From the NCBI RefSeq assembly GCF_900109955.1, contig NZ_FOJB01000002.1:124001-188000 (forward strand): a DNA stretch of 64,000 nucleotides, in the 5' to 3' direction. The notes beneath the pieces were generated by a model. It had not been told where the DNA came from and ran no database searches. It saw only the letters and a list, made by a program, of their open reading frames with translations. Made by a program: the position numbers and the translations under genes. This DNA comes from Aliiroseovarius sediminilitoris. GTDB taxonomy: Bacteria; Pseudomonadota; Alphaproteobacteria; Rhodobacterales; Rhodobacteraceae. Shown piece after piece: positions 19,187 to 38,463 of the stretch. How positions within the stretch are numbered: position 1 is the first letter of the stretch; every line of letters starts with the position of its first letter.

Positions 19187-19191
19187 GGCAC

Positions 19192-20166: not shown

Positions 20167-20195
20167 GCGCGCCGCCCCTGAAAAGGACCAAACCC

Positions 20196-21038
20196 ATGCA
20201 CATCGCCCCGTACGACAACAAGAACACACCCATCGTTGATGCAGATCACGATCTGGTGCCGCTGAATTATTTCAACATCGTCAAGCTGAAGAAGGGCGAG
20301 ACGTTCGAATACCAGGTGCCCGGCTATGAAACCTGCGTCGTTCCCGCCACCGGAACGGTGGACGTAGAGGTGGAGGGGATGAGCTTCCCCGCTCTGGGAA
20401 ACCGAACCGTTGACGTCTGGGATGGCGAACCCGAAGGCGTTTATGTCCCCGTTGGAGCGAAAGTGACAATCACCTGCGTGACGGACGAAACCGAAACCTT
20501 CATCGCCGGGGCGAAATACGACAAGGTGCTTGATCCGTTTGATGTGCGCGCGGATGAGCTTGACCTTGTGCAATACGGGTCGGACGACACGAAAACCCAC
20601 CGCAAGATCAAGCATATCCTTGGACAGAAACACCACGACAAAGTGGGCCGTCTGCTGGTCAGCGAACTCTACACCGTCGGTCAGGGGGGCTGGTCCGGCT
20701 TCCCCTCGCACAAGCACGACACCGACCGCCTGCCCGACGAGACACGGCATGACGAGACCTATAATTTCCGCTTCCGCCCCAACTATGGCTCGGGCGTTCA
20801 GATGTTGCAGCGCGAAGACAACAAGCCGGGGGATGCTTATCATATCATGGACGGGTCCACGATTGTTCTGGACAAAGGCTATCACCCCTGCGCGGTGCTG
20901 CCCGGTTATGAAATGTATTATTTCACCATTCTGGGCGGTCTCAGCCAGCGGTCGCTGGTGCAGTATTTTCAACCAACACATGCAGGACAGATCGAAACCA
21001 TCCCCGGCATCAAAGACATGATCGCGAAATTCAAATGA
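20196..21038 (+). CDS. iolB: 5-deoxy-glucuronate isomerase
   Basis: A 280-residue bicupin enzyme that isomerises 5-deoxy-D-glucuronate to 2-deoxy-5-keto-D-gluconate. The metal-binding cluster is visible at GFPSHKHDTDRLPDETRHDE, then YNFRFRPNYGSGVQML. A second histidine lies in GYHPCAVLPGYEMYYF. The length is normal. It sits 29 bases after iolC and overlaps the next gene as ATGA (21035-21038), so it is translationally coupled to the aldolase. Confidence 0.94.
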   Translation: MHIAPYDNKNTPIVDADHDLVPLNYFNIVKLKKGETFEYQVPGYETCVVPATGTVDVEVEGMSFPALGNRTVDVWDGEPEGVYVPVGAKVTITCVTDETETFIAGAKYDKVLDPFDVRADELDLVQYGSDDTKTHRKIKHILGQKHHDKVGRLLVSELYTVGQGGWSGFPSHKHDTDRLPDETRHDETYNFRFRPNYGSGVQMLQREDNKPGDAYHIMDGSTIVLDKGYHPCAVLPGYEMYYFTILGGLSQRSLVQYFQPTHAGQIETIPGIKDMIAKFK

Positions 21039-21865
21039 CACTTGCAACGCTTGCTGATGTGCTTCAGCCCGCGCTGAAGCAAGGCTATGCCGTGGCTGGG
21101 CTGGTCACATTGGGCTGGGAAGATATGCGCGCCTATGTCGCCGCCGCCGAAGCCGAAGACGTTCCCGTGATCCTTCAGGCGGGTCCGTCCTGCCGCGCGC
21201 ACACGCCCCTGCCGGTGCTGGGCAAGATGTTCCGTTATCTGGCGGAAGGTGCCAGCGTGCCCGTCGTGGCGCATCTGGATCACGGCTATACGATGGATGA
21301 ATGCCGCGAAGCGATCGACAGTGGGTTCACATCGGTCATGTTCGATGGTTCGCGCAAGCCCATTGCGGACAATATAGCCGCGACCAGGGCGATCGTCGAA
21401 CTTGCCCATGCCGCAGGCGTCTCCTGCGAAGGCGAGATTGGCTTCGTCGGATATTCCGGCGGCGAAGGGTCATCGGGCACAGACCCTGACGACGCAGCCC
21501 GTTTTGCGCGCGAGACCGGCGTGGACGCGATGGCGATCTCGGTTGGCAACGTCCATCTTCAACAGGACAAGGAAGGCGGGCTGGATATACCCCGCATCCG
21601 GGCAATCGAGGCCGTGACCAGCGTGCCGCTTGTCATCCATGGCGGCTCTGGCGTGCCGGTCGAACAAAGACGATTGCTGGCGACAGGTTCAAGTATCTGC
21701 AAATTCAACATCGGCACCGAGTTGCGCATGGCCTTCGGACACGCCCTGCGCAAGGCGGTGAACCGCGACACATCCCGCTTTGACCGGGTCTTGATCTTGA
21801 AAGAAACTCACGACCCCGTCATGGATGCCACGCGCCGGGTACTGCGCGCGTTCAAAGGAGAATGA
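21035..21865 (+). CDS. Class II ketose-bisphosphate aldolase, probable IolJ
   Basis: A 276-residue zinc aldolase of the FbaA/KbaY family. Zinc and catalytic residues are in VVAHLDHGYTMDECREAID, EGEIGFVGYSGGEGSS and LVIHGGSGVPVEQ, followed by CKFNIGTELRMAF. In the iol pathway, class II aldolase IolJ splits 2-deoxy-5-keto-D-gluconate 6-phosphate to malonate semialdehyde and dihydroxyacetone phosphate. Position directly after iolB and overlapping it supports this substrate; fructose or tagatose bisphosphate are alternatives. Note that iolA (malonate-semialdehyde dehydrogenase) is not in the window. Confidence 0.85.
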   Translation: MTLATLADVLQPALKQGYAVAGLVTLGWEDMRAYVAAAEAEDVPVILQAGPSCRAHTPLPVLGKMFRYLAEGASVPVVAHLDHGYTMDECREAIDSGFTSVMFDGSRKPIADNIAATRAIVELAHAAGVSCEGEIGFVGYSGGEGSSGTDPDDAARFARETGVDAMAISVGNVHLQQDKEGGLDIPRIRAIEAVTSVPLVIHGGSGVPVEQRRLLATGSSICKFNIGTELRMAFGHALRKAVNRDTSRFDRVLILKETHDPVMDATRRVLRAFKGE

Positions 21866-21866
21866 C

Positions 21867-22856
21867 ATGTTGAACATCGGACTTCTGGGCTGTGGCCGTA
21901 TCGGGCAGGTTCACGCCCGCTCGATCAGCCAGATCGACGGCGCGCGCGTCGCGGCTGTCTCGGACGCGTTCGCCGACCCCGCCCAAGCCTTGGCATCAAA
22001 GATTGGCGCACAGGTCATGGACAGTGACGCGCTGATCAACAGCAAGGATGTCGACGCCGTGGTGATCGGAACACCAACGGACACCCATTACGACCTGATC
22101 CACGCCGCCGCCCGCGCGGGCAAGGCGATCTTTTGTGAAAAACCCGTCGACATGTCCGCCGACCGCATCCGCGATTGTATCAAGGCAGTCGATGCGGCAG
22201 GCGTTTCCTTCATGACCGCATTCAACCGTCGCTTTGACCCCAATTTCGCCAACATACGATGCCGTATAGAGCAGGGAGAGATCGGGGACGTCGAGATCGT
22301 GACAATCATGTCGCGCGATCCGTCGCCGCCCCCCGTCAGCTATATTGAAAGTTCGGGTGGGCTGTTTCGGGACATGATGATCCATGACCTTGACATGGCG
22401 CGGTTTATTCTGGGCGAGGAACCGGTCAGCGTCTATGCCGTCGGTGCCGCCCTTGTTGATCCGGCCATTGGACGCGCGGGCGATGTTGATACCGCTGCTG
22501 TCACGCTGACCACGGCGTCCGGCAAAATCTGCCAGATTTCCAACTCCCGCCGGGCGACCTATGGCTATGACCAACGGCTGGAAGTGCATGGGTCCGCTGG
22601 AATGCTCCGCGCGGAGAATATACTGGAAACCACGGTTGAAGCCGCAAACGCTTCCGGGTTTCGCAAGGCACCCGCGCAGTATTTCTTCCTTGAGCGCTAT
22701 GAAGCGGCGTATCGCAACGAAATGGTCCACTTTGTCGAAGCCGTTGCGTGCGGGGGTCTGGTTGCCCCGGACATCATGGACGGGCTACGCGCCCAGGTGC
22801 TTGCGGATGCAGCATCTATATCTCTTTCCACGGGGCAGCCAATCAGGGTCGACTGA
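21867..22856 (+). CDS. iolG: Inositol 2-dehydrogenase
   Basis: A 329-residue Gfo/Idh/MocA enzyme that oxidises myo-inositol to scyllo-inosose with NAD. The N-terminus MLNIGLLGCGRIGQVHA is the IolG-type Rossmann motif; IFCEKPVDMS holds the catalytic Lys and FRDMMIHDLDMARFIL the Asp/His pair. AAAGGAG lies six bases before the ATG at 21867, which begins one base after the aldolase stop. Among the three dehydrogenases here this one most resembles canonical IolG in length and motifs, and it ends the plus-strand operon. A short hairpin, GGGTC-GACT-GACCC (22846-22859), overlaps its stop. Confidence 0.9.
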   Translation: MLNIGLLGCGRIGQVHARSISQIDGARVAAVSDAFADPAQALASKIGAQVMDSDALINSKDVDAVVIGTPTDTHYDLIHAAARAGKAIFCEKPVDMSADRIRDCIKAVDAAGVSFMTAFNRRFDPNFANIRCRIEQGEIGDVEIVTIMSRDPSPPPVSYIESSGGLFRDMMIHDLDMARFILGEEPVSVYAVGAALVDPAIGRAGDVDTAAVTLTTASGKICQISNSRRATYGYDQRLEVHGSAGMLRAENILETTVEAANASGFRKAPAQYFFLERYEAAYRNEMVHFVEAVACGGLVAPDIMDGLRAQVLADAASISLSTGQPIRVD

Positions 22857-22980: not shown

Positions 22981-24066
22981 TCAGCTTTTCAGCACTGCCA
23001 TATTGTCCGCCTCCCAGCCGATCCAGACCGGATCGCTGCCGAGCGACTGGCCGGTCTCGGCATCAACATAGGCCTTGAGCACCGCATCGCCGTTCTCGCC
23101 CACAGCGATCTCCATCGTCATGCGAGATCCGAGGAAGGTTCTGCCCACCACGCGCCCCAGCACCGCATTGCCGGTCTGCGGGCGCTCGGTGTGGAAGTCG
23201 AGCTTCTCTAACCGCACTGAAGCGGTGATTGGCTGGCCCGCGTCCGGCAATCTGTCAGGCGCCTTGCCCATAAGGGTTGTTCCCTCCCAGTCCATCACCA
23301 CCTTGTCGCCTTCGGTGCCACGCATCCGGCCTGACAGAAGGTTGGTCTCGCCGATGAACTCGGCCACGAACCGGCTGGCGGGCCGGAAATACAGCTCTTC
23401 CGGTGTGCCGTCCTGTTCCACCCGACCCTGGTTCATCACCACGATCCGGTCGGACATGGTCAATGCTTCTTCCTGATCGTGGGTCACGAAGAAGAAGGTC
23501 TTGTTGGTGCGCCGCTGGATCGATTTCAGCTCCTGCTGAACCTGTCCACGCAGCTTGGCATCCAACGCACCCAGCGGTTCGTCCAGCAACAGCAGTGCCG
23601 GATCGGGCGCCAGCGCGCGGGCCAGTGCCACCCGCTGGCGCTGACCCCCGGACAGTTGCACCGGATAGCGGTCGCCAAAGGCGTCAAGCTCCAGAAACGA
23701 CATGATCTCGTCCGAGCGGCGCTTGATGTCCGCCTTGCCCATCCCTTTCAGCTCCAGCCCGAAGGAAATATTCTGCGCCACGGTCATATGTGGAAACAGC
23801 GCGTAATCCTGAAATACCATGTTCACATGGCGCTTCTCGGGCGGCTGGTCGGTCACGTCCTCGCCGTCAAGGATCACCCGGCCGGTGGTCGGACGTTCGA
23901 ACCCGCCAAGGATGCGCAGCGTGGTGGACTTGCCGCAACCCGACGGGCCAAGAAAGGTCACGAACTCGCCCTGTGCGATGTCCAGTGTCAGGTTGTCCAG
24001 CGCGACGGTCTTGCCGAAATGCTTGGACAGTCCCTCGATGCGGACAAGTGGCGTCTGATCGGTCAT
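22981..24066 (-). CDS. PotA-type ABC transporter ATP-binding protein
   Basis: A 361-residue ATPase with Walker A GPSGCGKST (residues about 40-48), signature LSGGQRQR, Walker B LLLLDEPLGALD and a C-terminal TOBE domain (about residues 280-355), as in PotA/CysA-type importers. It ends the nine-gene operon that begins at 32304 and is convergent with iolG. The transporter family takes up polyamines, Fe3+, thiosulfate or other small compounds; here the enzymes upstream suggest an unusual nitrogen- or sulfur-containing organic compound. The substrate is not assigned. Confidence 0.88.
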   Translation of the reverse strand: MTDQTPLVRIEGLSKHFGKTVALDNLTLDIAQGEFVTFLGPSGCGKSTTLRILGGFERPTTGRVILDGEDVTDQPPEKRHVNMVFQDYALFPHMTVAQNISFGLELKGMGKADIKRRSDEIMSFLELDAFGDRYPVQLSGGQRQRVALARALAPDPALLLLDEPLGALDAKLRGQVQQELKSIQRRTNKTFFFVTHDQEEALTMSDRIVVMNQGRVEQDGTPEELYFRPASRFVAEFIGETNLLSGRMRGTEGDKVVMDWEGTTLMGKAPDRLPDAGQPITASVRLEKLDFHTERPQTGNAVLGRVVGRTFLGSRMTMEIAVGENGDAVLKAYVDAETGQSLGSDPVWIGWEADNMAVLKS

Positions 24067-24069
24067 GGT

Positions 24070-24873
24070 TCAGCTTTCCTTGTTCATGCGGCGGGTGAAA
24101 CGCTCGGCCCAAATGCCGACGGCGGCGGTCAGGATCAGCGCAACAGTTGCGATGGCGTTGATCTCGGGGCTCATGCCCGAACGAAGTTTGGCAAAGATCA
24201 GCACCGGCAGCGTCGGTTCATACCCGCCCAGGAAGAACGATCGGACGAAATCGTCAAACGACAACAGCAGGCAGAAGATCGACGCGCCGAGAATGGCGGG
24301 CACCAGATAGGGCAAAGTGATCCGGATGAACGTGACCAGCGGGTCGGCACCAAGGTCGCGGGCGGCCTCGATCTGGCTTTTCGGCAGGGTCGACAGGCGT
24401 GCCATCACCACCAGCACCACGAAGGGCACGTTGTGCACCGCGTGCGCCCAGACGATCGCGCCCATGCCGGGCTCGATCCCCAGATAGCGGGCATAGATGC
24501 GAAACGCGATGGCCGAAATGATCCCCGGCACCAGCGCAGGCAGCACCGTCATTCCGAAAATCGCAGTGCGGCCAAGGAATTTTCGCCCCTCCAGCAACAC
24601 GGCGATCCACGTGCCGACCATCACTGAAATCAGCGTCGACAGAACCGCGATGGCGATGGAATACCCAAAGGTCGACAAGACCTCGGCATCGGCAAAGACT
24701 CCCGTGTACCAATCCAATGTCCACGACCGGATCGGAAAGCCAATGAACTTCGAATCCTTGAACCCCATCATGATCATGAGGAACAGCGGCACGAAGACGT
24801 AAAGGACAAAGGCCCAATAGATGCAGCTCAGGAAGATCCGGTTGCCCCGGAACAGCTCTGGACGATCGTTCAT
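24070..24873 (-). CDS. PotC-type ABC transporter permease
   Basis: A 267-residue inner-membrane permease with about six transmembrane helices. The EAA loop that contacts the ATPase is seen in IEAARDLGADPLVTFIRITLPYL near residues 162-182, as in PotC. The N-terminal helix is FLSCIYWAFVLYVFVPLFLM. It begins in an ATGA overlap with the PotB-like gene (24870-24873) and is followed after three bases by the ATPase gene, so the three are one translational unit. Confidence 0.88.
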   Translation of the reverse strand: MNDRPELFRGNRIFLSCIYWAFVLYVFVPLFLMIMMGFKDSKFIGFPIRSWTLDWYTGVFADAEVLSTFGYSIAIAVLSTLISVMVGTWIAVLLEGRKFLGRTAIFGMTVLPALVPGIISAIAFRIYARYLGIEPGMGAIVWAHAVHNVPFVVLVVMARLSTLPKSQIEAARDLGADPLVTFIRITLPYLVPAILGASIFCLLLSFDDFVRSFFLGGYEPTLPVLIFAKLRSGMSPEINAIATVALILTAAVGIWAERFTRRMNKES

Positions 24874-25856
24874 TCCTGCTCTCCTTTACGCAGCGAATTC
24901 ATCACTTTCTGGAACGTCGCCGTAATGACAAGCGCCGCCATGAACATGATCGTGGCAAAAGCGGCTCCGGTGGGCCATTCGTCACCGGCCACATGGAAAA
25001 AGCCCGCGATGGTTTCGGCAAACACCGTGGTGGACGGCCCGCCCAGAAGAACCGGCGTCGCATAGAAACCGGTGGAGATAAGGAACACCAGCGTGCAGCC
25101 TGACGAGATACCTTCTATGGTCAGCGGAAGCGACACCCGGCGGAACCGTGTCCATGCCCCGGCGCCCAGATCGGCTGCGGCCTCGTTCATGCTTTGCGGC
25201 AATTTCTCAAGCGCCGAATACAGCGGCAACAGCATGTAAAGCGCAGTCAGATAGACAATGCCGACCCCCATCGAAAAGCTCGTGTACATGAAGGGTATGG
25301 GTCGGTCGATCAGACCCATCCATTTCAAAACAAGGTTCACCGCGCCCGTGTTGCCCAACAGGATCATGATGGCATAGGTGCGCACAATCTCACCCACCCA
25401 GAACGGGATCAGCAGAAGCAGCAGAAACAACATCTGGTTCTTGCGGCTGACATGGCGGGCAAGAAAATAGGCCACCGGATATGTGATGATCAGCGTGCAG
25501 AAGGTGAACACCCCGGCAAAGGCCAGTGTCCGAAAGAACGGCATCCAGAAGATACTATCCCCGAAAAAGCGGGCATAATTGTCCAGGGTGAAATTCTGTT
25601 CGACCCCCGGTGCGACCGGATAGGCATCGGTCAGCGACACCCGAACCATCTGCAACATCGGCCCGAGGTGTTGGGTCAGCACCCACAGGACCGGAAAGGC
25701 GGCAAGGATCAGGAACTGGCGGCGCGGCGAGGCCGTCGCCAGACGCATCAACGTGTGATACGGGCCCCATCCGACCAGGCGGCCCCAGAATGTGCGGTCG
25801 GAAGCGTCATGTGCCTCGGCGCGCTTGCCCCGCTGCGAGGATGCGTCATAGGTCAT
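24870..25856 (-). CDS. PotB-type ABC transporter permease
   Basis: A 328-residue permease. A polar N-terminal stretch of about 45 residues is followed by six hydrophobic segments beginning FLILAAFPVLWVLTQHLG. The EAA loop is MNEAAADLGAGAWTRFRRVSLP. The long hydrophilic N-terminus is somewhat larger than in Escherichia coli PotB but common in related alphaproteobacterial importers. It lies between the solute-binding-protein gene, from which it is separated by a stable hairpin, and the PotC-type permease, which it overlaps. Confidence 0.87.
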   Translation of the reverse strand: MTYDASSQRGKRAEAHDASDRTFWGRLVGWGPYHTLMRLATASPRRQFLILAAFPVLWVLTQHLGPMLQMVRVSLTDAYPVAPGVEQNFTLDNYARFFGDSIFWMPFFRTLAFAGVFTFCTLIITYPVAYFLARHVSRKNQMLFLLLLLIPFWVGEIVRTYAIMILLGNTGAVNLVLKWMGLIDRPIPFMYTSFSMGVGIVYLTALYMLLPLYSALEKLPQSMNEAAADLGAGAWTRFRRVSLPLTIEGISSGCTLVFLISTGFYATPVLLGGPSTTVFAETIAGFFHVAGDEWPTGAAFATIMFMAALVITATFQKVMNSLRKGEQE

Positions 25857-25883
25857 TCAATGGTCTTTCGGAAGGTCAGGGCC

Positions 25884-25908
25884 CCTGCCCCGCACCGGGC
25901 GGGACAGG
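25884..25908 (-). promoter_or_regulatory. Intercistronic hairpin after the PotD-type binding-protein gene
   Basis: CCTG-C-CCCGC (25884-25893) pairs with GCGGG-A-CAGG (25899-25908): nine pairs with one C/A mismatch and a five-base loop. It lies between the binding-protein stop and the permease start, with no clear T-run, so it is more likely a message-stabilising or attenuating structure than a full terminator. Confidence 0.5.
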
Positions 25909-25929
25909 AACAGGTTTCCTAACATGGTA

Positions 25930-27039
25930 TCAGGCGGCCTTGATCGCCTCGACCGCCGGGTCAACAAGCCCGTATTTCATCTCGTTCGCTTCGGCACGGA
26001 AGAATTGCAGGTTCGCCAACTGCTCTTCCGGGAACGAGGTCGACTTCTTCTCGAGATCGCTCAGATATTGCGAGGCATCCTTGTATGTCGAAATGAAGCC
26101 CGATGCCTTGGTCATCGCCGCACCGATTTCGGGCGAGGCAAGGATCGCGTCAAGGAAGGTATAGGCGTTGTCCACATTGGGCGCGTTGTTGGCGATATTA
26201 TAGGTATAGACAAAGCCATATGACCCTTCGCGCGGGATCGTCATTGCCAGCGGGAAGCCATCATTGATCAACGCTGCTGCCGGGCCGTTCCACGAATGAC
26301 CCAACGCGATGTCCTGGTTGACCATCATCTGCTGGAACTCGGCCCCGCCGTCGTAATATTTGCGCACCAAAGGCTTCTTCTCGATCAGGAACTGCTTGGC
26401 CTCCTCGACGATCTGTGCGGCCTTCTCGGGGTCATCCATATATTCGACCATATTGCCGTCATACCCCTTCATCAGCATCACGATCGACATCATGTCCTGA
26501 ATGATATAGGCCGTCTGACCGCTGTATTTCTCGCTGAACAAAGTGTCCCAAGTCAGCGCTTCTTCCTCGCTCACCAACTCGGTGTTGTAGGACAGGACTT
26601 CCATTCCAGACAGGATCGGCGCACCCCATTTGTTGCCGTTGATCGTCGACCAATCGCTTTCCGAGAAGGTCGGGTTGATCTTGCCCCAGTTGGTCAGCCG
26701 GTCAGTGTCAAGCGGCGCCAGAAGGTCGCTGTCGATGAATTGCAGGAACCGGTGGCCGGCGACGGTCATGATGTCGACCGTCGGGTTCGGCTGTTCGGCG
26801 GCCAGCAGGTTGAACTGTTTGCCCTGATCATCCACCAGACGCACATTCACCTTGATACCGGTTTCGGCCTCGAACTGCTCCTTGAACGCTTCGGGCACGA
26901 AATCGTTATAGGTCCAGATGTTCACCTCGCCACCCGACTGGGCCGCAGCGCGACGCAGATAGAAGGGCGATGCCAGCGCAGCCCCGGTGGTGGCGGCGGT
27001 GCCAAGAAAACGGCGGCGGCTATAAAGCAGTTTTGACAT
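25930..27039 (-). CDS. PotD-type extracellular solute-binding protein with Tat-like signal
   Basis: A 369-residue type II binding protein. The N-terminus has a twin-arginine motif SRRRFLGTAATTGAALASP followed by cleavage near RRAAAQS, so export by Tat is likely. The mature part begins EVNIWTYNDFVPEAFKEQFE, typical of the PotD/PotF group, with ligand-lobe segments GAPILSGMEVLSYN and GHSWNGPAAALIND. PotD proteins usually hold polyamines through acidic and aromatic residues, but the family is broad. It is the first of the four transport genes and follows the opine-dehydrogenase-like gene by 56 bases. Confidence 0.86.
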   Translation of the reverse strand: MSKLLYSRRRFLGTAATTGAALASPFYLRRAAAQSGGEVNIWTYNDFVPEAFKEQFEAETGIKVNVRLVDDQGKQFNLLAAEQPNPTVDIMTVAGHRFLQFIDSDLLAPLDTDRLTNWGKINPTFSESDWSTINGNKWGAPILSGMEVLSYNTELVSEEEALTWDTLFSEKYSGQTAYIIQDMMSIVMLMKGYDGNMVEYMDDPEKAAQIVEEAKQFLIEKKPLVRKYYDGGAEFQQMMVNQDIALGHSWNGPAAALINDGFPLAMTIPREGSYGFVYTYNIANNAPNVDNAYTFLDAILASPEIGAAMTKASGFISTYKDASQYLSDLEKKSTSFPEEQLANLQFFRAEANEMKYGLVDPAVEAIKAA

Positions 27040-27095
27040 ATCAGGTCTCCTTGTTGGTTCAGTGGTCTTCTTCTTGGTTATTATCTTGTCGTCGT

Positions 27096-28226
27096 TCAGG
27101 CGCTGGCGGGGTGACGCAACAACCCTGTCTTTGCGGCCTGTTTCAGATCATCAAGGTCATAGCGGCCAAGGTCCAGCGCTTTCAGGATCTCGTTCTCTCC
27201 TTCGAAATCCCGACCATACATGGCCGAAAAAATCCGGATGCCAGCCTCGTGCAGCGGTGCGGGGTGGCCGGTCAGCCGCCCCAGCGCCGCGGTCAGGACC
27301 AACCCATAGGGCACATCCTCGGTCACGTAACGGCTGTCAGCCGTGTCTGGGCCGACACCTCCGTTTCCCTGCGCGTGCATCTGCTGGTTCATCTCGGAAA
27401 TCGAGGCGACGGGCACGTGGAAGGACAGGTGGAAATGTTCAAAGATCGTCTTGACTTCCAGCCCCAGCGCCTTCGCGATGTCCAGTCGCTCACGGTCCAG
27501 CTCTTCCAGCAAACGACCCACTTTGGGGGTGACGTTCTGGCCCTGCGACCATGTCTCGCCGCGTTCCATTCGGGTGATGTTGCCCAAGGCAATCCCCATG
27601 TGGTTTTGCGGGTTCAGGTTGGACAGCGAGATCGCCAACAACCCACTACGTGGCTGGAACCGGTCGCCGAACAGGGTCTGGCACAGGCTCAACGCTTCTT
27701 GGGATCGGTTATCCGGCACGGTGCAAAGATCAACACGGCTGCGCACGGTGTTCACCTTCACCTCGGTGCCCGATTGCCGCCGTCCGGTGCAGATTGTGGT
27801 GCCCCAAGCGGTGATTGGAACATGCACGGCACGCGCGGCCAGAAGCTGCGACAGATAAACCGCCCCCAGCGAGGCATGGGACGAAATGATAACATGATGC
27901 CGCGGTTCGATATGCGGGGCCAGCGCGTCCAACACCGTTTTGTGGCCGTAACCCGGAAGCGCGATGATCAACACGTCATTGTCGCGAGCCAGCATCGCTG
28001 CACTGTCGGCAATGCGGGGCGTCAGCGTTGTCTCGACCGCGCCAACCGCTTTCAGCGCAGCACCGTTCGCCAAGTCCGCCGTGCCCTTGCCCGATGGCGA
28101 CCACAGCATCGGATCGTGGCCAGCCTTATGCAACAGCGCCGCCGTCCCGAACGCAATCGAGCCTGCGCCCGCCAATCCAACCGATTTGCCCACGTCTCCT
28201 CCCATCGTATTTGCCAAACCTTTCAT
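27096..28226 (-). CDS. NAD/NADP octopine/nopaline dehydrogenase-family protein
   Basis: A protein of about 376 residues. The N-terminal Rossmann fold is VGLAGAGSIAFGTAALLHKAG. The C-terminal all-helical domain contains LSNLNPQNHMGIALGNITRMERG, matching the octopine dehydrogenase domain in which a histidine acts in catalysis. Opine dehydrogenases join or split an amino acid and a 2-oxo acid through a reductive C-N bond. The start is unclear: ATG 28226 or ATG 28205 (MGGDVGKSVG). It overlaps the end of no gene but lies 19 bases after the AhpD-like gene. With a dedicated importer downstream, breakdown of an opine-like compound is one possible role; this is inference. Confidence 0.8.
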   Translation of the reverse strand: MKGLANTMGGDVGKSVGLAGAGSIAFGTAALLHKAGHDPMLWSPSGKGTADLANGAALKAVGAVETTLTPRIADSAAMLARDNDVLIIALPGYGHKTVLDALAPHIEPRHHVIISSHASLGAVYLSQLLAARAVHVPITAWGTTICTGRRQSGTEVKVNTVRSRVDLCTVPDNRSQEALSLCQTLFGDRFQPRSGLLAISLSNLNPQNHMGIALGNITRMERGETWSQGQNVTPKVGRLLEELDRERLDIAKALGLEVKTIFEHFHLSFHVPVASISEMNQQMHAQGNGGVGPDTADSRYVTEDVPYGLVLTAALGRLTGHPAPLHEAGIRIFSAMYGRDFEGENEILKALDLGRYDLDDLKQAAKTGLLRHPASA

Positions 28227-28245
28227 CGCGACGCTGATCTTCGCC

Positions 28246-28836
28246 CTACGCTGCGTCTTCCGGCACCCGCACCGGATCGCCCAGAACATGCATCAGCCGG
28301 TTGGCCCAGCCAAACAGCGCGGCGGACAGGGTCAGATCCAGCATCTCGGTCTCGTCCAACCCGGCAGCCTTCAGCGCGTCCATATGCTCCGGCCCCGCAT
28401 TTGACGGTGCTTCGGACAGCGCCACCGCAAAATCAAAGATCGCCCGGTCGCGTGGTCCTAGGTCTGCCTTCGCGCCGTCGCGGAACAGTCTGTCCGTCGC
28501 CTCGGTCGATTTCTCTAGCTGCGCATGGCGCGCGGCATGGACAGCGGCGCAATAGATGCAATGGTTGACCATCGAGGCTCCCAGCGCGCCCAGTTCCCGC
28601 TCTGCCCGGCTCATCCCGCCCCTGTCATACATAATGGCATTAAACAGCGGCGAACGCACCTTCAGGCTTTCGACGTCATGCGCAAGGGTCAGAACATATT
28701 CCGACACCTTGGTATTCGACGGCGTGACCTGCAACGCATCCAACTGCGCGTCGGTCGCTTCAGACAGGTTCACCGGGGTCACGCGCGGCTGCCAATGCGG
28801 CACATTGCGGGTGAATTTCGTGATCACCTTACTCAT
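28246..28836 (-). CDS. Peroxidase-related AhpD/CMD-fold protein with CxxC
   Basis: A 196-residue all-alpha protein of the carboxymuconolactone decarboxylase/AhpD superfamily. The redox motif is HCIYCAAVHAARH near residue 95 (Cys-x2-Cys with a following His), as in alkylhydroperoxidase-type members. The N-terminal MSKVITKFTRNVPHWQP and the ending GWANRLMHVLGDPV agree with the peroxidase-related subgroup. Its start overlaps the preceding CMD gene as ATGA (28833-28836). I recall tandem pairs of such CMD proteins with a flavin enzyme and transporter in Agrobacterium (Avi_7169/Avi_7170-like families); this pair looks like that arrangement. Confidence 0.8.
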   Translation of the reverse strand: MSKVITKFTRNVPHWQPRVTPVNLSEATDAQLDALQVTPSNTKVSEYVLTLAHDVESLKVRSPLFNAIMYDRGGMSRAERELGALGASMVNHCIYCAAVHAARHAQLEKSTEATDRLFRDGAKADLGPRDRAIFDFAVALSEAPSNAGPEHMDALKAAGLDETEMLDLTLSAALFGWANRLMHVLGDPVRVPEDAA

Positions 28837-29312
28837 GCGAACATCCCCTTCATCAGACGCAGCCCGGCAATCAGCCGAATCTGATAGGCCAGAAATGCGT
28901 TCAGTTCCGCCAACCGAACGATGTCGGCATCCGCCACACCTGTCGCTTGCAGACCCGAGATGTCAGTCGCCAAGACATTGCGCGTATCCACCGCCACCTT
29001 GTCCATGAAATCCACGACCTCAGCCAAGCCGTGTGCAGCCCCGTCATTGGCCGGATCGGCCAGATCGGCAAACGCGCCGGCTCCTTCGACATAGCACGCG
29101 GCAAGGTCGGTTTCTGCATTCAGCGCCACAATCCGCGCCGCCAGAGCCGCCCGCAATTCATGCGACCACGGGCCTTTGTCCTTGGGGCGCAGTACCGCTT
29201 CTTCCGCGGCCTGCGTCATCTCGAAGATATTCGCGCGGCCCTCGACGGCAGCCCCCACTGCGGCATCCGTCATGACACCTGCGAATCTCAAAGCGGTCGT
29301 CTCGAACGCCAT
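28833..29312 (-). CDS. CMD-domain protein, partner of the AhpD-like protein
   Basis: A 159-residue helical protein. The start at 29312 overlaps the monooxygenase stop as TGATG; a much longer reading upstream is the shadow of that gene. It lacks a CxxC motif, so it is not a peroxidase by itself. The segment LRAALAARIVALNAE followed by LAACYVEG resembles CMD-type folds in which the Cys pair is reduced to one (CYVEG). It is translationally linked to genes on both sides, which suggests a stoichiometric partner of the CxxC protein. Exact function unknown. Confidence 0.68.
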   Translation of the reverse strand: MAFETTALRFAGVMTDAAVGAAVEGRANIFEMTQAAEEAVLRPKDKGPWSHELRAALAARIVALNAETDLAACYVEGAGAFADLADPANDGAAHGLAEVVDFMDKVAVDTRNVLATDISGLQATGVADADIVRLAELNAFLAYQIRLIAGLRLMKGMFA

Positions 29313-30778
29313 CAGGCCACTTTTCCTTTCTTGTCGTCCGTCACCAGTTCGGAGGGCACCCATTCGCTGCCATCCAGTTCCGGCTTGTCGTAATCCAGCA
29401 TCGCCTGCCAATGCGCGTCTATATCCTCGGCATACAGTCTCGCCGCGATCTCGCGCACCATCCAATTGGCACCTTCCGAGATCCCGGGAATATCGCCCGA
29501 CACCTTGCCCAGGCTGGCCGAGGCGCCGTAGTTGAAGCAATAGACATTGGACAGCCACGGCGCGGTGCCCGGCACCTTTTCGCGGAAGGTGAAATCGTCA
29601 TTCAAATAGGGGAACCGTCCCAAATCGCGTGAGTGCTCGTCCGCTGGTGGTGCGTAAACATCCTGCCACAGCAGAATATCGCTGGCCGCATCGCCGAACT
29701 CGGTTCGTGACAGCGGGTCGATCGTGAAGCCGGTGCCAAGGATAACGAAATCCGCCTCATAAGCCGTGCCATCGGCGAAACCCACTTTGACCGCGCCGTT
29801 CTTTTCGACCGTCGTTTGCACCGCTTTGCCGAAATGGAAATAGGCATTCGGATGACGGCTGACCCGGTTGGTGGACCCGTGCGGCGGTGGCGTTTGAGTG
29901 GCAAAGGAATACTGCATGAAGCGCCAGCGCCATTCATCGGGCAGGCGGGCATATCCGGCGGTGAACCCGAACGAGCCGATCCCCATCATCTTGTTGATCG
30001 TCGGCATTTCAGCGCGGCGGATCAGGTGGCGCACTTCGGCCGCGCCATGTTCCAGCGCCTCGGCGGCATTGTCCACGGCGGACGCCCCCACGCCCACCAC
30101 CGCCACGCGCTTGCCTTTCAGCGTGGCAAAGTCGATCTTGTCGGCACTATGCGCCCAATACTTGCGGTCCAGACCCTGCACGAAGCCCGGAATGTTCGGT
30201 TGCCCCGTGCCATCGCGCCCGGTGGCAAAAACCAGTTTGCGGCACAGGATTGATTCTTCCCTGGCCCCCGAAAGATGCAGCCGCAACAAATCCCCCTCAG
30301 GTTCGACCAGATCGACGGCCACGTTGTTCTCGGTCGGGATGTCCAACACCTGCCGATACCATTGCAGGTATTCCATCCACATCGGGCGTGGGATTTTGTC
30401 CAACGCGTCCCATCCCTCCGTGCCAAACTGCGCGCGGAACCACGCCTGAAAGCTCAGCGCGCCATGGCCGAAGGCCGGGCCGGTCAGTTCCTTGGGCGAG
30501 CGTAACGTCTCCATCCGCGCATAGGTCAGCCACGGGCCTTCCAGCCCCTCGGGGCTACGGTCCAGCACCCGCATGTTATGAATGCCACCGGTTTTCAGCG
30601 CCAGCCACGCCACCATGCCGCACATGCCTCCGCCAATGATCACCACATCGCTCACGCCTTCACGCGCAGGCACCCAATCCTTGCCGGGCCAGCACAAAAA
30701 CTTCAGATCCTCATGCAACCGCGCCTCAAGCCTTGGCAAACCTTGGTCGTCGATGGGTGAAGCGGGATCGCGTGTCAT
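29312..30778 (-). CDS. FAD/NAD(P)-dependent monooxygenase-like protein
   Basis: A 488-residue flavoprotein. The FAD-binding motif is VVIIGGGMCGMVAWLALK (residues about 45-62), the NADPH motif is VAVVGVGASAVDNAAEALE (about 210-228), and FATGRDG and ILGTGFTID are the typical FMO-family ATG/TGF segments. Baeyer-Villiger and N-hydroxylating FMOs share this layout, but the canonical FxGxxxHxxxW/F fingerprint is not obvious, so oxygenation chemistry is an inference. It lies between the class V PLP enzyme and the CMD pair. It may oxidise the imported compound, with the AhpD-like protein removing peroxide. Confidence 0.78.
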   Translation of the reverse strand: MTRDPASPIDDQGLPRLEARLHEDLKFLCWPGKDWVPAREGVSDVVIIGGGMCGMVAWLALKTGGIHNMRVLDRSPEGLEGPWLTYARMETLRSPKELTGPAFGHGALSFQAWFRAQFGTEGWDALDKIPRPMWMEYLQWYRQVLDIPTENNVAVDLVEPEGDLLRLHLSGAREESILCRKLVFATGRDGTGQPNIPGFVQGLDRKYWAHSADKIDFATLKGKRVAVVGVGASAVDNAAEALEHGAAEVRHLIRRAEMPTINKMMGIGSFGFTAGYARLPDEWRWRFMQYSFATQTPPPHGSTNRVSRHPNAYFHFGKAVQTTVEKNGAVKVGFADGTAYEADFVILGTGFTIDPLSRTEFGDAASDILLWQDVYAPPADEHSRDLGRFPYLNDDFTFREKVPGTAPWLSNVYCFNYGASASLGKVSGDIPGISEGANWMVREIAARLYAEDIDAHWQAMLDYDKPELDGSEWVPSELVTDDKKGKVA

Positions 30779-30843
30779 GTCGTCTTTCCTTCAAGTGTGA
30801 ACTTCTGCCCTGATCAGAACAGTCAGGTTTGGCACTGTCGATG

Positions 30844-32304
30844 TCACGAGGCAAGCGTATCCTTGGCGAAATCCTGTGCTTTGAACCGGGCGGTGCTGGT
30901 ATCGACGCGATACTGTGCCGTATAATCTTGGGCGATCCGCGCCAGATCGTCCACCGCATCAATGATTAAATCTGCCTTCGCGTCCGTCATCAAGGCAGAA
31001 AGGTTCAGCCGCACCCAGCCGGGTTTGGCGGTTTCCTGACCCAATTCCAACGCCGCCATAGTGGCATCGGAATCGGACTTGCCAAGACCCAGCAAACGGT
31101 GGCCATAAGGCCCGGCGCAGGCGCAACCGCCACGCGCCTGAACGCCTGTCAGATCGCTGAGCAACCGGGTGAAAAACTGGTGGTGGACCTGCGCGCCGTG
31201 GCCGTCCCGTATCCGGAACGAAAAAATTGGCAGCGCATCGGCTTCGGGTGTGCCCAGTATCTGGATACGATCATTGGCCGCCCAGACCTTCAAGGCACGC
31301 GCCCTGAGCGCCGCTTGCCGTTTATCCAACCAATCCTGCCCCAACGCTTCTTTCACCAGCATCGCCAATGCGGCGCGAATGTCGCCGGTCACATTGGGCG
31401 TGCCGCCCTCTTCGCGCGCGGCAAGGTTTTCGGAATACACATGCCCCCAAGGCGACACGAAACTGACCGTGCCGCCGCCAGGAAGGGTCGGCGTGGCACG
31501 ACACGCGATCGCGTCACGGATCACGGCAATACCGCTGGACCCCGGACCGCCGGGAAACTTGTGCACGGAAAAAACGATGGCATCCTTCTGCGCGTCGCTG
31601 CCCTGTTTCATATCCATTTCGCAATATGGGCCGGCGCAGCCGTAATCCCAGATCGCCAGCGCACCATGGGCGCGCAGCATTCGCGTTACGGTATCCACAT
31701 CCGTCAGAATGCCGGTGACGTTGGACGCTGCTGAAAAGGTGCCGACAATCCGCGCAGCACCCTTGGCCGCCCATAATGCACGGGCCAAATCGTTCATATC
31801 GACACCGCCACCCGGTGCTTCTGCAATCTCGATCACCTCTGCCCCGGTTTCGCGCCACGGCAGAATGTTGGAATGGTGTTCATACGGGCCGGTCAGAACC
31901 ACCACGCGCTGTCCGTCCCTCACCAATCTGGTCAGATCCAGCAGACCGACGATCCGGTTGATCCCGGCGGTCGAACCTGCGCCGGTAAACACCACGCTCA
32001 TCCCCTGCCCCGCGCCGGTCAGGCGGGCAATCTCGGTCCGCGCAGCCTCGCGCAGTTTGGTCATGTATTCACCACAGAACGACGCCTGTGTGTGGGTGTT
32101 GGCATAATAGGGCAGCACTCGGTCACGGATGAAATCCTCGACTTGTGCCAGCGCCCGGCCCGAAGCCACGTAATCGGCATAAATTAGCGGCTTTGGACCG
32201 AACGGCCCGTCTATCTGCACATCCTCACCGATCAGCCCCTTGCGGATCTGGTCGTGAATATCGGAACCTGTCAGCGTAGCCTTGAAATCGTCGAGAGCCG
32301 TCAT
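30844..32304 (-). CDS. Class V aminotransferase / cysteine desulfurase-like PLP enzyme
   Basis: A 486-residue PLP enzyme. The N-terminal segment ADYVASGRALAQVEDFIRD and the glycine-rich VFTGAGSTAGINRI bind cofactor; the Schiff-base lysine is in FSVHKFPGGPGSSG near residue 245, with the following Gly-rich loop typical of class V. A late cysteine-rich stretch GVQARGGCACAGPYGH recalls the loop of SufS/CsdA-type desulfurases, but the protein is about 80 residues longer than those. AGGAG lies six bases before the ATG at 32304. It opens a nine-gene operon and is divergent from an Lrp regulator. A lyase, desulfurase or epimerase reaction on an unusual amino acid is likely; the substrate is unknown. 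Confidence 0.78.
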   Translation of the reverse strand: MTALDDFKATLTGSDIHDQIRKGLIGEDVQIDGPFGPKPLIYADYVASGRALAQVEDFIRDRVLPYYANTHTQASFCGEYMTKLREAARTEIARLTGAGQGMSVVFTGAGSTAGINRIVGLLDLTRLVRDGQRVVVLTGPYEHHSNILPWRETGAEVIEIAEAPGGGVDMNDLARALWAAKGAARIVGTFSAASNVTGILTDVDTVTRMLRAHGALAIWDYGCAGPYCEMDMKQGSDAQKDAIVFSVHKFPGGPGSSGIAVIRDAIACRATPTLPGGGTVSFVSPWGHVYSENLAAREEGGTPNVTGDIRAALAMLVKEALGQDWLDKRQAALRARALKVWAANDRIQILGTPEADALPIFSFRIRDGHGAQVHHQFFTRLLSDLTGVQARGGCACAGPYGHRLLGLGKSDSDATMAALELGQETAKPGWVRLNLSALMTDAKADLIIDAVDDLARIAQDYTAQYRVDTSTARFKAQDFAKDTLAS

Positions 32305-32405
32305 GTTATCTCCTGATTTGATGCAAGCATTGTGACGCAATATCAACAAATTTATTCACAGTTTTTAGCCGTTGTATTTCATTTTTTGGGTCATATAATC
32401 GGTAT

Positions 32406-32870
32406 ATGGCAGATAAATTCGATCAATTTGATTACCGCATCCTGGAAGAACTTCAGCGTGACTCGGCACAGTCCCAACGGGCGCTTGCCGACAAGGTTGG
32501 CCTGTCGCAAAACGCTTGCTGGCGACGGCTCAAGACGTTGGAGGCGAAGGGGGCTATCCGCAACCGAACCGTGGTCATCAACCGCGAGAAACTGGGCGGT
32601 GGCTTCGTCGTGTTTTCGCTGATCAAAACGCGGCATCATTCGTCGGATTGGCTGCGCCAGTTCCGCAATCATGTCTCGGCAATCCCCGAGGTGATCGACT
32701 TCTTCCGCATCGGCGGTGAATATGATTATCTTCTAAAGATTGTTGTCAACAACATGGCCGGGTATGACGAAGTCTATAAGCGCCTGATCGGCAATATCGA
32801 GCTTGAGACCGTCACGTCCTATTTCGCGATGGAGGCGATCGAGGAGCAGCGCCCCATCCCGCTCAGATAG
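32406..32870 (+). CDS. Lrp/AsnC-family transcriptional regulator
   Basis: A 154-residue regulator. The N-terminal winged helix is DYRILEELQRDSAQSQRALADKVGLSQNACWRRLKTLE, and the C-terminal RAM domain (about residues 70-150) contains VSAIPEVIDFFRIGGEYDYLLKIVV. RAM domains bind amino acids. It is divergent from the class V PLP gene with an AT-rich 101-bp gap between them, so it most likely controls that nine-gene operon in response to an amino acid or the pathway substrate. It is convergent with tdh, with only nine bases between the stops. Confidence 0.9.
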   Translation: MADKFDQFDYRILEELQRDSAQSQRALADKVGLSQNACWRRLKTLEAKGAIRNRTVVINREKLGGGFVVFSLIKTRHHSSDWLRQFRNHVSAIPEVIDFFRIGGEYDYLLKIVVNNMAGYDEVYKRLIGNIELETVTSYFAMEAIEEQRPIPLR

Positions 32871-32879
32871 CCTCCGGCC

Positions 32880-33926
32880 CTACCGCCAGTTCAACACCAC
32901 CTTGCCCGACAAGCCGGATTTCATCGCAGCGAACCCCTCTTTGAACTCGTCCACCTTCATCCGGTGTGTGATCACGCGGCTCACATCCAGCCCGTTTTGT
33001 AACATGGCGATCATCTTATACCAGGTCTCAAACATCTCGCGCCCATAGACGCCCTTGATGGTGATCGCCTTGAATACGATGCGCGACCAGTCAACCGGAG
33101 ACTTGCCGGGCGGAATGCCCAGAAGCGCGATCTTGCCGCCCATGATCAGACCTTCTACCATCTGATCCAGCGCCTGCTGACTGCCCGACATTTCCAAGCC
33201 GACATCAAAACCCTGCTTCATCCCCAACTCGCGGATCACATCGCGCAGGTCTTCTGTTGTCACATCGACCGTTCGGATGTTGTGGCAGACATGTTCGGCC
33301 AGCTTCAGGCGATCCGGATTGATATCGGTGATCACCACATGCCGCGCCCCGGCATGACGCGCGACTGCTGCGGCCATGATGCCAATCGGCCCGGCCCCGG
33401 TGATCAACACATCCTCGCCCAGCAGATCGAAACTCAGCGCCGTGTGCACCGCGTTTCCCAACGGATCAAGGATCGCACCAATCTCGTCCGGAATATCATC
33501 CGGCAACGGCACCACATTGAACGCGGGCAGGCGCAGATATTCCGCAAACGCCCCCTGCACATTCACGCCAATGCCCCGCGTTCCGGGGTCCAGATGGAAC
33601 TTGCCCGACCGGCTCTGGCGGCTTTCCGTGCCGACCACATGGCCTTCGCCCGAACACCTTTGACCGATCTCAAGCCCGGTGACATTGCGGCCAAGCTCGA
33701 CGATCTCGCCGGCAAATTCGTGACCCGTTATCATCGGCACCGGCACCGTGGCCTGCGCCCAGTCGTCCCAGTTCCAGATGTGAATATCGGTGCCGCAGAT
33801 ACCCGTGGCATTGATGCGGATCAGCACATCATCCGGCCCGATCTCGGGCACCGGAGCGCGCACCATCCACAACCCTTCTTCGGGCTTGGATTTTTCCAGG
33901 GCTTTCATCGTGTTCGGCAGGCTCAT
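32880..33926 (-). CDS. tdh: L-threonine 3-dehydrogenase
   Basis: A 348-residue zinc alcohol dehydrogenase-family enzyme that oxidises L-threonine to 2-amino-3-oxobutyrate. The catalytic zinc region is [18 protein letters not shown] followed by [12 protein letters not shown]. The NAD fold has [22 protein letters not shown]-terminal segment [14 protein letters not shown] matches Tdh. Length is normal. It overlaps kbl as ATGA (33923-33926); Kbl then cleaves the unstable product with CoA to glycine and acetyl-CoA. Confidence 0.95.
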
Positions 33927-35110
33927 TCGATCACTCCCAGGTTGCGACCCACTTTGCCAAACGCGGCCAGCGCGCGGTCAAGCTGTTCGGTGGTCAATGC
34001 TGCGCTCATCTGGGTGCGGATGCGGGCCTTGCCATGCGGCACCACCGGGAAGAAAAAACCCGAGACATAGACACCTTGGTCAAACAACCCGGCGGCCATC
34101 TTCTGCGCCAGCGGGGCCTCGCCCAGCATCACCGGAATGATCGGATGTTCGCCCTCCAGCAGGTTGAAACCCAGCTTGCTCAGCCCGTCCCGCCAATAGC
34201 GCGCGTTCGCGAAAAGTCGCGCCCGCAGATCGGCACCCGCTTCGACCAGACGGATCGCCTCCAGACCTGCCGCGACAATCGACGGCGGCAAGGCGTTCGA
34301 GAATAGGTAAGGCCGCGCGCGTTGACGCAACAGGTCGATCACCGGTTGCGGTCCGGCGATGTAACCGCCAAGCGCCCCGCCCAGTGCCTTGCCCAATGTG
34401 CCGGTCAGAATATCAACATCGATTCCGAAATGATCCGGCGTCCCTGCGCCCTTCGGTCCCATGAAACCGGTGGCGTGGCAGTCATCCACCATCACAACCG
34501 CGTCATATTCCTTTGCCAACCGGGTGATCTCCGGCAGGTTGGCCAGATAGCCATCCATCGAGAACACGCCGTCGGTGGCGATCATCACATGGCGCGCACC
34601 GCCTTCGCGCGCCTCTTTCAGCTTCGCCTCAAGATCGCCCATGTCGTTGTTGGCATAGCGAAAGCGTCGCGCCTTGCACAGCCGGATCCCGTCAATGATC
34701 GAGGCATGGTTCAGCGCATCCGAGACAATCGCGTCCTCCGGCCCCAGCAGCGGTTCAAACAACCCGCCGTTTGCGTCGAAACAGGCCGCGAACAGAATCG
34801 AGTCGTCCTTGCCCAAAAACGCCGCCAGCTTCTGTTCCAGCTCGCGGTGCAGGTCCTGCGTGCCACAAATGAACCGGACCGAGGCCATGCCAAAGCCCTT
34901 GTCCTCCATCACATCCCGCGCAGCCCGGATCAGGTCCGGGTGGTCGGCCAGCCCCAGATAGTTGTTGGCGCACAGGTTGATCACCTCGCGATTCCCCACA
35001 GTGATCTCGGCCCCCTGCGGCGAGGTGATCAGGCGCTCGCGTTTCATCAAGCCATCAGCCTCGATCCCGGCAAGCGTGGTTTTCAGATCTGCGATGAAAC
35101 GGTCGGACAT
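33923..35110 (-). CDS. kbl: Glycine C-acetyltransferase (2-amino-3-ketobutyrate CoA ligase)
   Basis: A 395-residue PLP enzyme of the alpha-oxoamine synthase family. Recognisable segments are [63 protein letters not shown] and the Schiff-base lysine in [19 protein letters not shown]. It splits 2-amino-3-oxobutyrate from Tdh. It is co-translated with tdh and preceded after 93 bases by a regulator in the same direction. An inverted repeat (35149-35164) lies about 40 bases upstream of its start. Confidence 0.95.
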
Positions 35111-35203: not shown

Positions 35204-35761
35204 CTACATACCCTTGACGACAAGAAACGCCCGTGCCTGCCCCTCTGCCTTTAGCCGATGCGGCACATCGGCCGCATATCGCGCAGTTTCACCCGTATTC
35301 AACCGATCGGACGCATGCCCGCTGGTCACAGTCAGAACCCCTTCAATCACCGTCAGGTTCTCTTTCGTGCCGCAGGCATGTGGGGCAGAGTCGAGCATAC
35401 CCCCATCGGCAAAGCGCAGCTCATACACCTCGTGGCGGCCCGCATCTTCGGGCGGGGACAGGATGCGGATCGTGCAGCCGTCACCATGGTTCTCGATGGT
35501 CGGCACTTCTTCGGCGCGCAGCAGCTCGATCCGGCTGCCCGCCTGGTCTTCCAACAGCCCCGCGAAATCCACCTGCAAGGTGCGGGTCAGGTTCCAGAGC
35601 GTCGACACCGTGGGCGAGCTTTCGCCCCGTTCGATCTGGCTGACCATGCTGCGCGACACGCCCGACAGCTTGGCCACCGCGTCCAGCGACAACCCCTGCG
35701 CTTGCCGCGCCTGCTTCAGGCGGGCGGAAAGACGAGAGAGGATCGAGTCTGGTTTTTCCAT
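35204..35761 (-). CDS. XRE-family regulator with C-terminal cupin domain
   Basis: A 185-residue regulator. Residues about 8-65 are a Cro/C1 helix-turn-helix with ARQAQGLSLDAVAKLSGVSRSMVSQIERGESSPT. Residues about 105-180 form a cupin (APHACGTKENLTVIEGVLTV then TARYAADVPHRL). This domain pair occurs in small-molecule-responsive regulators such as PuuR-like and amino-acid catabolism controllers. It is directly upstream of kbl-tdh in the same direction, so control of threonine degradation is likely. The inverted repeat before kbl and the one at 35867-35895 are possible targets. Confidence 0.85.
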   Translation of the reverse strand: MEKPDSILSRLSARLKQARQAQGLSLDAVAKLSGVSRSMVSQIERGESSPTVSTLWNLTRTLQVDFAGLLEDQAGSRIELLRAEEVPTIENHGDGCTIRILSPPEDAGRHEVYELRFADGGMLDSAPHACGTKENLTVIEGVLTVTSGHASDRLNTGETARYAADVPHRLKAEGQARAFLVVKGM

Positions 35762-38357: not shown

Positions 38358-38463
38358 TCGTTTTATCCTTGTCAGAAGATTTCTGTCGGCAAGATGACCA
38401 AGGCATGCGCCCAAGACGATCAGGGCCAGACCTCGCCTATAAATCCATCCTTGTTTCGATTCG

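Follow-up and report, generated by a model that had tools for sequence, protein, structure and literature searches.

What compound is handled by a run of nine minus-strand genes in Aliiroseovarius sediminilitoris, at positions 22,981 to 32,304 of a 64,000-nucleotide stretch (contig NZ_FOJB01000002.1, positions 124,001 to 188,000; hereafter the window)? A preliminary description of this DNA had placed these genes opposite a divergent Lrp/AsnC-family gene and had proposed that they import and degrade an opine-like or sulfur/nitrogen compound. The layout was confirmed in the window sequence, and a role in import and breakdown is supported by the present analysis. The reading that we favor, with about even chances of being right, is an operon that takes up an organosulfur amino acid derived from cysteine or glutathione and breaks it down by oxidation. 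Four lines appear, from the sequences compared, to point to cysteine chemistry, namely the regulator, the pyridoxal phosphate (PLP) enzyme, the gene that follows the PLP enzyme gene in rhizobia, and glutathione-type neighbors in relatives. The genes and the region between the first two are as follows.

32406..32870, plus strand: Lrp/AsnC-family regulator (Lrp), putatively of the cysteine-sensing DecR/CyuR type (Pfam PF01037/PF13404)
32305..32405, strandless: divergent promoter region between lrp and the PLP enzyme gene, with a TCATATGA-like element near the lrp start
30844..32304, minus strand: class V PLP enzyme, SufS-like, with conserved Lys249 and Cys396 (Pfam PF00266)
29312..30778, minus strand: FAD/NAD(P)-dependent, flavin monooxygenase (FMO)-like enzyme (Pfam PF13738/PF07992; weak matches to solved FMOs)
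28833..29312, minus strand: CMD2, AhpD-fold protein lacking the CxxC pair (Pfam PF02627, an entry shared with CMDc)
28246..28836, minus strand: CMDc, peroxidase-related AhpD-family protein with CxxC in HCIYCAAVH (Pfam PF02627; TIGR01926 185.8 bits, cut-off 81.8)
27096..28226, minus strand: octopine/nopaline (opine) dehydrogenase family enzyme (ODH; Pfam PF02317; start codon uncertain)
25930..27039, minus strand: PotD-like periplasmic binding protein (Pfam PF13416; aligned with Escherichia coli PotD)
24870..25856, minus strand: PotB-like permease (NCBIfam PotB 186.7 bits, under the cut-off)
24070..24873, minus strand: PotC-like permease (NCBIfam PotC 156.2 bits, under the cut-off)
22981..24066, minus strand: PotA-like ATPase (TIGR01187 360.6 bits, passing the cut-off of 355.6)

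The proteins P0005 and P0007 were taken with one residue ahead of the start codon.

Conservation of the gene set

A scan of species genomes with the FMO alignment gave 536 confirmed matches, from which the best 80 were kept, and 65 of these lay on loci of at least 19 kb. The order FMO-CMD2-CMDc was present in all 65 of these FMO-selected long loci, with ODH in 59 and PotDBCA in 58; the full core of FMO, the CMD pair, ODH and PotDBCA was found in 58, mainly in Rhodobacterales and Rhizobiales, and FMO with the CMD proteins occurred without ODH in 6. Among the best 80 of the 536 matches, the closest named relatives of the window locus belong to Rhodobacterales. Since the long loci had been selected through FMO, a selection-free test over the genomes of the family is useful: among 198 such genomes, an FMO match was present in 19 (E 1e-30) and an ODH match in 14 (E 1e-60), and all 12 genomes with a close FMO (at least 68%) were among those 14, whereas the 7 with a distant FMO only were not. 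The co-conservation across Rhodobacterales and rhizobia on which the preliminary description depended is thus borne out by the 58 full-core loci and the 12 genomes having both enzymes. The FMO-CMD core was found in marine Rhodobacterales, rhizobia, agrobacteria and Halomonas, and this recurrence in marine and soil lineages suggests that it handles something available in both sea and soil. Open reading frames for the neighborhood comparison were picked by homology score and not by a gene finder, so that small genes were missed, and the 106 sequences compared hold some genomes twice (e.g. L027/L050, L035/L087 and L037/L096). Two distant FMO homologues (L018 and L019) each contain one in-frame stop (TGA and TAG, respectively).

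The PLP enzyme gene was present in 39 of the 65 long loci, 38 of which also had an lrp gene. It had a match in 52 of the 198 family genomes (E 1e-100), compared with 19 for FMO (E 1e-30), and an lrp gene stood beside it in 18 of 20 PLP loci from genomes lacking an FMO match, with a ribosomal S4 gene near 9 of the 20. Judged by this distribution, Lrp and the PLP enzyme form a module of their own with a wider spread. Parts of the set also occur elsewhere: Paracoccus marcusii has the PLP enzyme gene beside kbl, tdh and genes of an XRE-family regulator and Lrp, without FMO or ODH, and Agrobacterium tumefaciens 1D1609 has ODH and PotDBCA together with kbl, without FMO. LysR takes the place of Lrp in four Hyphomicrobiales plasmid loci. 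In Sinorhizobium meliloti, the module is plasmid-borne. Given the wider Lrp-PLP module and these LysR loci, the control of all nine genes by Lrp that the preliminary description proposed is putative in the window and would extend no further than to comparable lineages.

The regulator and the promoter region

The window Lrp was 44% identical to E. coli DecR, scoring 140 bits against it, compared with 78 bits against Lrp and 33 bits against AsnC, and it was the top DecR match of 15 in its own genome (131 bits; runner-up 122). On these scores, it is closer to the DecR/CyuR cysteine-sensor type than to E. coli Lrp or AsnC. CyuR is described as being activated by cysteine and switching on an operon for a cysteine importer and a desulfidase, which adjoins serine/threonine genes (PMC9040844, in the part cited here). 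The gene of the runner-up (L212, C1:1220000-1230000 of the same genome) lies between a P450 gene and a nitrite/sulfite-reductase-family gene, the latter scoring under the family cut-offs, and it perhaps encodes a second cysteine-linked regulator.

A TCATATGA-type element is located approximately 8 bp from the lrp start, within the lrp-PLP intergenic region. The exact element was present in 37 of 65 distinct intergenic regions and, with at most one mismatch, in 56, compared with 0.2 and 4.0, respectively, in mononucleotide shuffles, a comparison that overstates the enrichment because the intergenic sequences are related. The window copy, TTATATGA, lies on the minus strand within 32386-32401 and has one mismatch to the longer pattern. 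Lrp may bind this element as an operator, or the element may serve as the -10 box in the promoter of a leaderless lrp gene. Scans for sigma-70 promoters and terminators gave results not above shuffles.

The PLP enzyme and its sulfur-linked neighbors

The PLP enzyme scored 127 bits against the SufS family of NCBIfam, for which the cut-off is 475.1, and is hence a relative and not a member of that family; its nearest solved sequences are cysteine desulfurases. Residues K249, C394 and C396 were invariant in an alignment of 17 sequences (A2), in keeping with a PLP-binding lysine and a persulfide-forming cysteine; the pairing of a cysteine with the catalytic one of SufS was judged by eye. In all six Rhizobiales loci opened, the gene after the PLP enzyme encodes a metallo-beta-lactamase-type (MBL) protein of the Blh, or persulfide dioxygenase, type, followed in two of the six by a TauE-type exporter gene. 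Three of these proteins scored 519-535 bits against NF040641 (cut-off 625), covering just the later part of that profile; five were 66-79% identical to the Rhizobium etli copy, with 66-75% for the three without a profile score, and the persulfide dioxygenase ETHE1 is among the solved relatives of the rhizobial protein.

Glutathione-type genes recur near homologues of the set. In Thioclava, genes for ChaC (PF04752), a membrane dipeptidase, the PLP enzyme, FMO (47%) and a TRAP transporter stand together. Class-II glutamine amidotransferase and 5-oxoprolinase-type genes lie beside the PLP enzyme gene at L176, the enzymes being named after their domains. Hydantoinase/oxoprolinase genes were seen beside FMO-PLP or FMO-CMD loci, with HyuAB next to FMO and the PLP enzyme gene at L038, and a gamma-glutamyltranspeptidase gene stands beside an ODH gene that has no FMO at L172. 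Genes for DsbA-like proteins lie beside FMO, including that of Agrobacterium fabrum (FMO 60%). On a plasmid of Ruegeria conchae (L134), a PLP enzyme homologue stands by a TRAP transporter, an OsmC-family protein and a cytochrome P450, with no FMO in the stretch shown.

The monooxygenase and the CMD pair

FMO has two Rossmann dinucleotide sites, and the glycines of GGGMCG and GVGASA were invariant (alignments A1 and A5). The Rossmann sites and the match to PF13738 assign it putatively to the class B flavin monooxygenase type, for which oxygenation at sulfur or nitrogen is predicted. As a precedent, YxeK is a monooxygenase able to break an S-substituted cysteine (PMC9706529, in the part cited here).

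CMDc retains the CxxC redox pair in HCIYCAAVH, whereas CMD2 had no conserved cysteine across 18 sequences and has an AhpD-like fold only. Overexpression of ahpD or of dsbA, each alone, is described to give resistance to the disulfide stressor allicin, and AhpD-type genes occurring together with DsbA-like ones resemble the genes that counter disulfide stress in allicin resistance (PMC7119367, in the part cited here). For the CMD pair, the peroxide role of the preliminary description is retained, with a safety function against thiol/disulfide stress or sulfenates as a second reading; CMD2 lacks the cysteine pair.

The opine dehydrogenase and kbl/tdh

ODH scored 128.5 bits against PF02317 (gathering cut-off 30), and its nearest solved sequence is 1bg6, N-(1-D-carboxylethyl)-L-norvaline dehydrogenase (E 1e-50). 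Its H210, R300 and D305, which were invariant in 15 sequences, align with the catalytic His202, Arg292 and Asp297 of 1bg6. With this triad kept, ODH probably functions as an opine dehydrogenase, and its earlier assignment to that family is upheld.

Past the lrp gene, on the side away from the operon, lie three genes, of which kbl and tdh are probable functional neighbors.

32880..33926, minus strand: tdh, L-threonine 3-dehydrogenase (NF003808 538.5 bits, passing the cut-off)
33923..35110, minus strand: kbl, glycine C-acetyltransferase (TIGR01822 619 bits, passing the cut-off)
35204..35761, minus strand: XRE-family regulator, whose homologues recur beside kbl or ODH (homologue cluster)

NCBIfam scores bear out both kbl and tdh, with tdh slightly under the cut-off of 458.35 for TIGR00692 (443.3). 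The two were found together in 14 of the 65 long loci. Next to the module they take at least four different layouts, one of which (L103) has kbl-tdh-FMO-CMD2-CMDc-ODH-PotDBCA all on a single strand. These 14 loci are not independent, with Aliiroseovarius and its allies and Pseudotabrizicola and its allies sharing the window arrangement; the rhizobial loci have other arrangements. Neither gene was found in the 20 PLP loci lacking an FMO match (L174-L193), a loose control because these loci were selected through the PLP enzyme. The XRE homologue cluster comprises 19 of the 106 sequences, including the window's copy, and its member at L103 matches a helix-turn-helix and a cupin domain.

Other genes adjoin this region. 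A plus-strand run at 17318-22856, next to the operon, encodes a thiamine pyrophosphate enzyme and a KduI/IolB-family protein and is probably for myo-inositol catabolism. At 36858-40242, a multicopper oxidase stands beside a pyridine nucleotide-disulphide oxidoreductase of 592 aa, a pair that is possibly metal-related.

Importer and exporter

In the PotD alignment, FVY stands in place of the WMD motif of E. coli (Trp to Phe and Asp to Tyr), and a gap covers one acidic position; the Trp of WNG is retained, and several further residues of the pocket are identical or similar. Given the roles of these E. coli residues in polyamine binding, polyamine is a doubtful ligand. The PotABCD-type importer of the preliminary description hence stands as a family; the name says polyamine, but the pocket is altered in part. 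The importer also varies, with PotDBCA in most loci, a TRAP transporter in Halomonas, its protein clusters recurring in Roseinatronobacter, and an amino-acid-type ATP-binding cassette (ABC) importer in Jiella, Rhizobium and Pantoea loci. Such swaps suggest that an amino-acid-like or acidic ligand would fit.

An MFS protein with a histidine-rich C-terminal tail, its gene often between those of the PLP enzyme and FMO, forms a cluster of 40 of the 106 sequences, and a MATE protein of rhizobia and some Rhodobacterales forms one of 15. The conserved tail of the MFS protein, as at L051:8622-9965, suggests that this exporter binds metal or has a link to metals. Neither gene is present in the window operon, and a 43% MFS homologue is encoded on contig C1. 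The exporter in relatives and kbl/tdh belong to the picture beyond what had been described before.

Proposed mechanism

From the gene families, residues, gene order and co-conservation observed, we infer a scheme for the ligand, the order of steps, the direction of ODH and the atom attacked by FMO. PotDBCA, an importer by family, would import the organosulfur compound, and FMO would oxygenate it, most likely at or next to sulfur, resulting in opening of the C-S bond or a sulfoxide. The CMD pair, with one subunit having and one lacking CxxC, would clear sulfenate, disulfide or peroxide by-products, and ODH, in line with its family and aligned residues, would take off or add an N-carboxyalkyl group. 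A released cysteine-type product might then induce the SufS-like PLP enzyme through the DecR/CyuR-type Lrp, and this enzyme would strip the sulfur as a persulfide, a step suggested by the conserved cysteine and by the persulfide-dioxygenase-type and TauE genes after it in rhizobia. Where adjoining the operon, kbl/tdh would convert a C4 amino acid product to glycine and acetyl-CoA, and the MFS or MATE exporter of relatives would expel toxic products. A more specific version, which we consider quite improbable, is the salvage of cysteine adducts whose nitrogen is blocked by an opine-type N-carboxyalkyl and not an N-acetyl group: an S-,N-substituted cysteine or a methyllanthionine-like thioether would be opened by FMO, deblocked by ODH and desulfurized by the SufS-like enzyme, with the C4 half passing through Kbl. 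If true, this would give the bacterial octopine/nopaline dehydrogenase family a catabolic job.

Weighing the explanations

Several observations weigh against organosulfur breakdown as the role of the operon. Many roseobacters carry Lrp-PLP away from any FMO, and the PLP enzyme gene was not detected close to FMO in 26 of the 65 long loci, so that the two enzymes need not share a substrate. The MBL gene was found in none of five Rhodobacterales plasmid PLP loci opened, a Pfam scan of the ten operon proteins found no persulfide dioxygenase or TauE gene, and the Blh-type match of the same genome lies on another contig. Among the glutathione-type neighbors, those beside an FMO belong to its distant homologues (47-51%) and the others to PLP or ODH loci that have no FMO; an exception is the DsbA-like protein at the A. 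fabrum locus (FMO 60%). Neighbors were viewed in just 11 of 79 plasmid PLP records, 8 of 334 FMO records and 1 of 234 ODH records. The window kbl is the sole match at E 1e-60 in its genome, so that kbl/tdh may be a housekeeping pair, and FMO might act on nitrogen rather than sulfur.

The likeliest of the alternatives, itself unlikely, is sulfur-free opine catabolism, in which an N-(carboxyalkyl) amino acid would be imported and split oxidatively by ODH to a keto acid and a threonine-like amino acid passing to Tdh and then Kbl, with FMO oxidizing the secondary amine of related opines and PLP/Lrp being a separate neighbor. It accords with the His/Arg/Asp of a true opine dehydrogenase in ODH, with a locus having ODH and PotDBCA with kbl, without FMO or CMD (L024), with the single-strand run at L103 and with the 26 long loci lacking a detected PLP enzyme gene, but leaves unexplained the two conserved AhpD-fold proteins, the DsbA-like neighbors, the FMO-PLP pairs of distant relatives and the 6 of 65 FMO/CMD loci without ODH. 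Searching the literature for homarine or other roseobacter opine routes gave nothing relevant. It is improbable that the genes serve detoxification rather than nutrition, with a reactive sulfur or electrophilic compound being neutralized by FMO and CMD, an amino acid capped by ODH and the product exported by MFS or MATE. The recurrent exporter (MFS in 40 and MATE in 15 of the 106 sequences, a set with some duplicate genomes) and the AhpD, DsbA and OsmC neighbors, as in allicin resistance (PMC7119367, in the part cited), favor this idea, whereas a dedicated importer is the most constant neighbor after the CMD pair and ODH (58/65) and the window operon has no exporter gene.

We regard biosynthesis as very unlikely, that is, ODH making an opine-type metallophore or signal that the His-rich MFS pump would send out and PotDBCA would bring back in. 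The combination of ODH, exporter and importer, the His-rich tail in relatives and metal transporter genes close to some loci would suit it; the replacement of PotDBCA by TRAP or amino-acid importers in some loci, the cysteine-sensing type of the regulator, the missing exporter in the window operon and the Pfam scan, which showed no family of ligases or peptide synthetases in the ten proteins, would not. The chance that this is a plain operon for polyamine uptake and oxidation is slighter still. The sequence names of the transporter, a PotA above its NCBIfam cut-off and several similar PotD pocket positions speak for polyamine, whereas the Trp and Asp of WMD read Phe and Tyr, one acidic position is gapped and a Pfam scan found no recognized polyamine-degrading enzyme set in the operon; as the pocket is changed in part only, polyamine stays a weak rival.

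Taken together, these points leave organosulfur amino acid breakdown as the reading that we prefer, and within the earlier choice between a sulfur/nitrogen and an opine-like compound, it is the sulfur half that gains most, from the DecR-like Lrp, the SufS-like PLP enzyme and the persulfide-type neighbors in rhizobia. If cysteine or glutathione adducts are broken down here, the operon would add to the ways in which dissolved organic sulfur and nitrogen are processed, and three proteins known so far by family name only, namely an opine dehydrogenase, an AhpD-fold protein devoid of cysteine and a relative of SufS, would gain a testable role.

Comparison with known systems

Literature searches confined to open-licence papers of PubMed Central turned up no described pathway with this gene set. 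Two contexts were considered and rejected, as neither the B12-linked one of octopine/nopaline dehydrogenase (PMC2667541) nor the MocR/TauE regulons (PMC5320631) matches this set in the parts cited. A regulatory parallel is E. coli CyuR/DecR-cyuPA, in which a cysteine-activated regulator, the closest to the window Lrp, stands over a sulfur-removing enzyme and an importer near serine/threonine genes; no FMO, AhpD pair or opine dehydrogenase is described there in the part cited (PMC9040844). The Bacillus yxe/scm pathway for S-(2-succino)cysteine is alike in combining an importer with a monooxygenase that breaks an S-substituted cysteine to a cysteine product, and differs in that YxeK is FMN-dependent and that the window set has an opine dehydrogenase instead of acetyl steps (PMC9706529, in the part cited); no Pfam family of the yxe/scm N-acetyltransferase or deacetylase was found among the window's ten proteins. 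The allicin resistance islands of Pseudomonas share AhpD and DsbA-like (FrnE-like) thiol/disulfide defense, with OsmC, and are a tolerance system, not a catabolic operon, the main text of the paper being without the word 'monooxygenase' (PMC7119367).

The window ODH is like known opine dehydrogenases (CENDH 1bg6 and octopine dehydrogenase) in PF02317 and in the aligned catalytic His, Arg and Asp, and unlike them in being conserved alongside an importer, FMO and CMD proteins. CyuA and CyuP of E. coli are not known to be related to the PLP enzyme and PotDBCA. The garlic-type alliin route comprises S-oxygenation by an FMO, a PLP-dependent C-S lyase acting on S-substituted cysteines, and gamma-glutamyl removal; it is alike in its FMO, PLP and gamma-glutamyl steps, and unlike in being a plant biosynthesis with a PLP enzyme of another family. 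Set beside these systems, the gene set most likely serves the catabolism of an organosulfur amino acid in a new variant.

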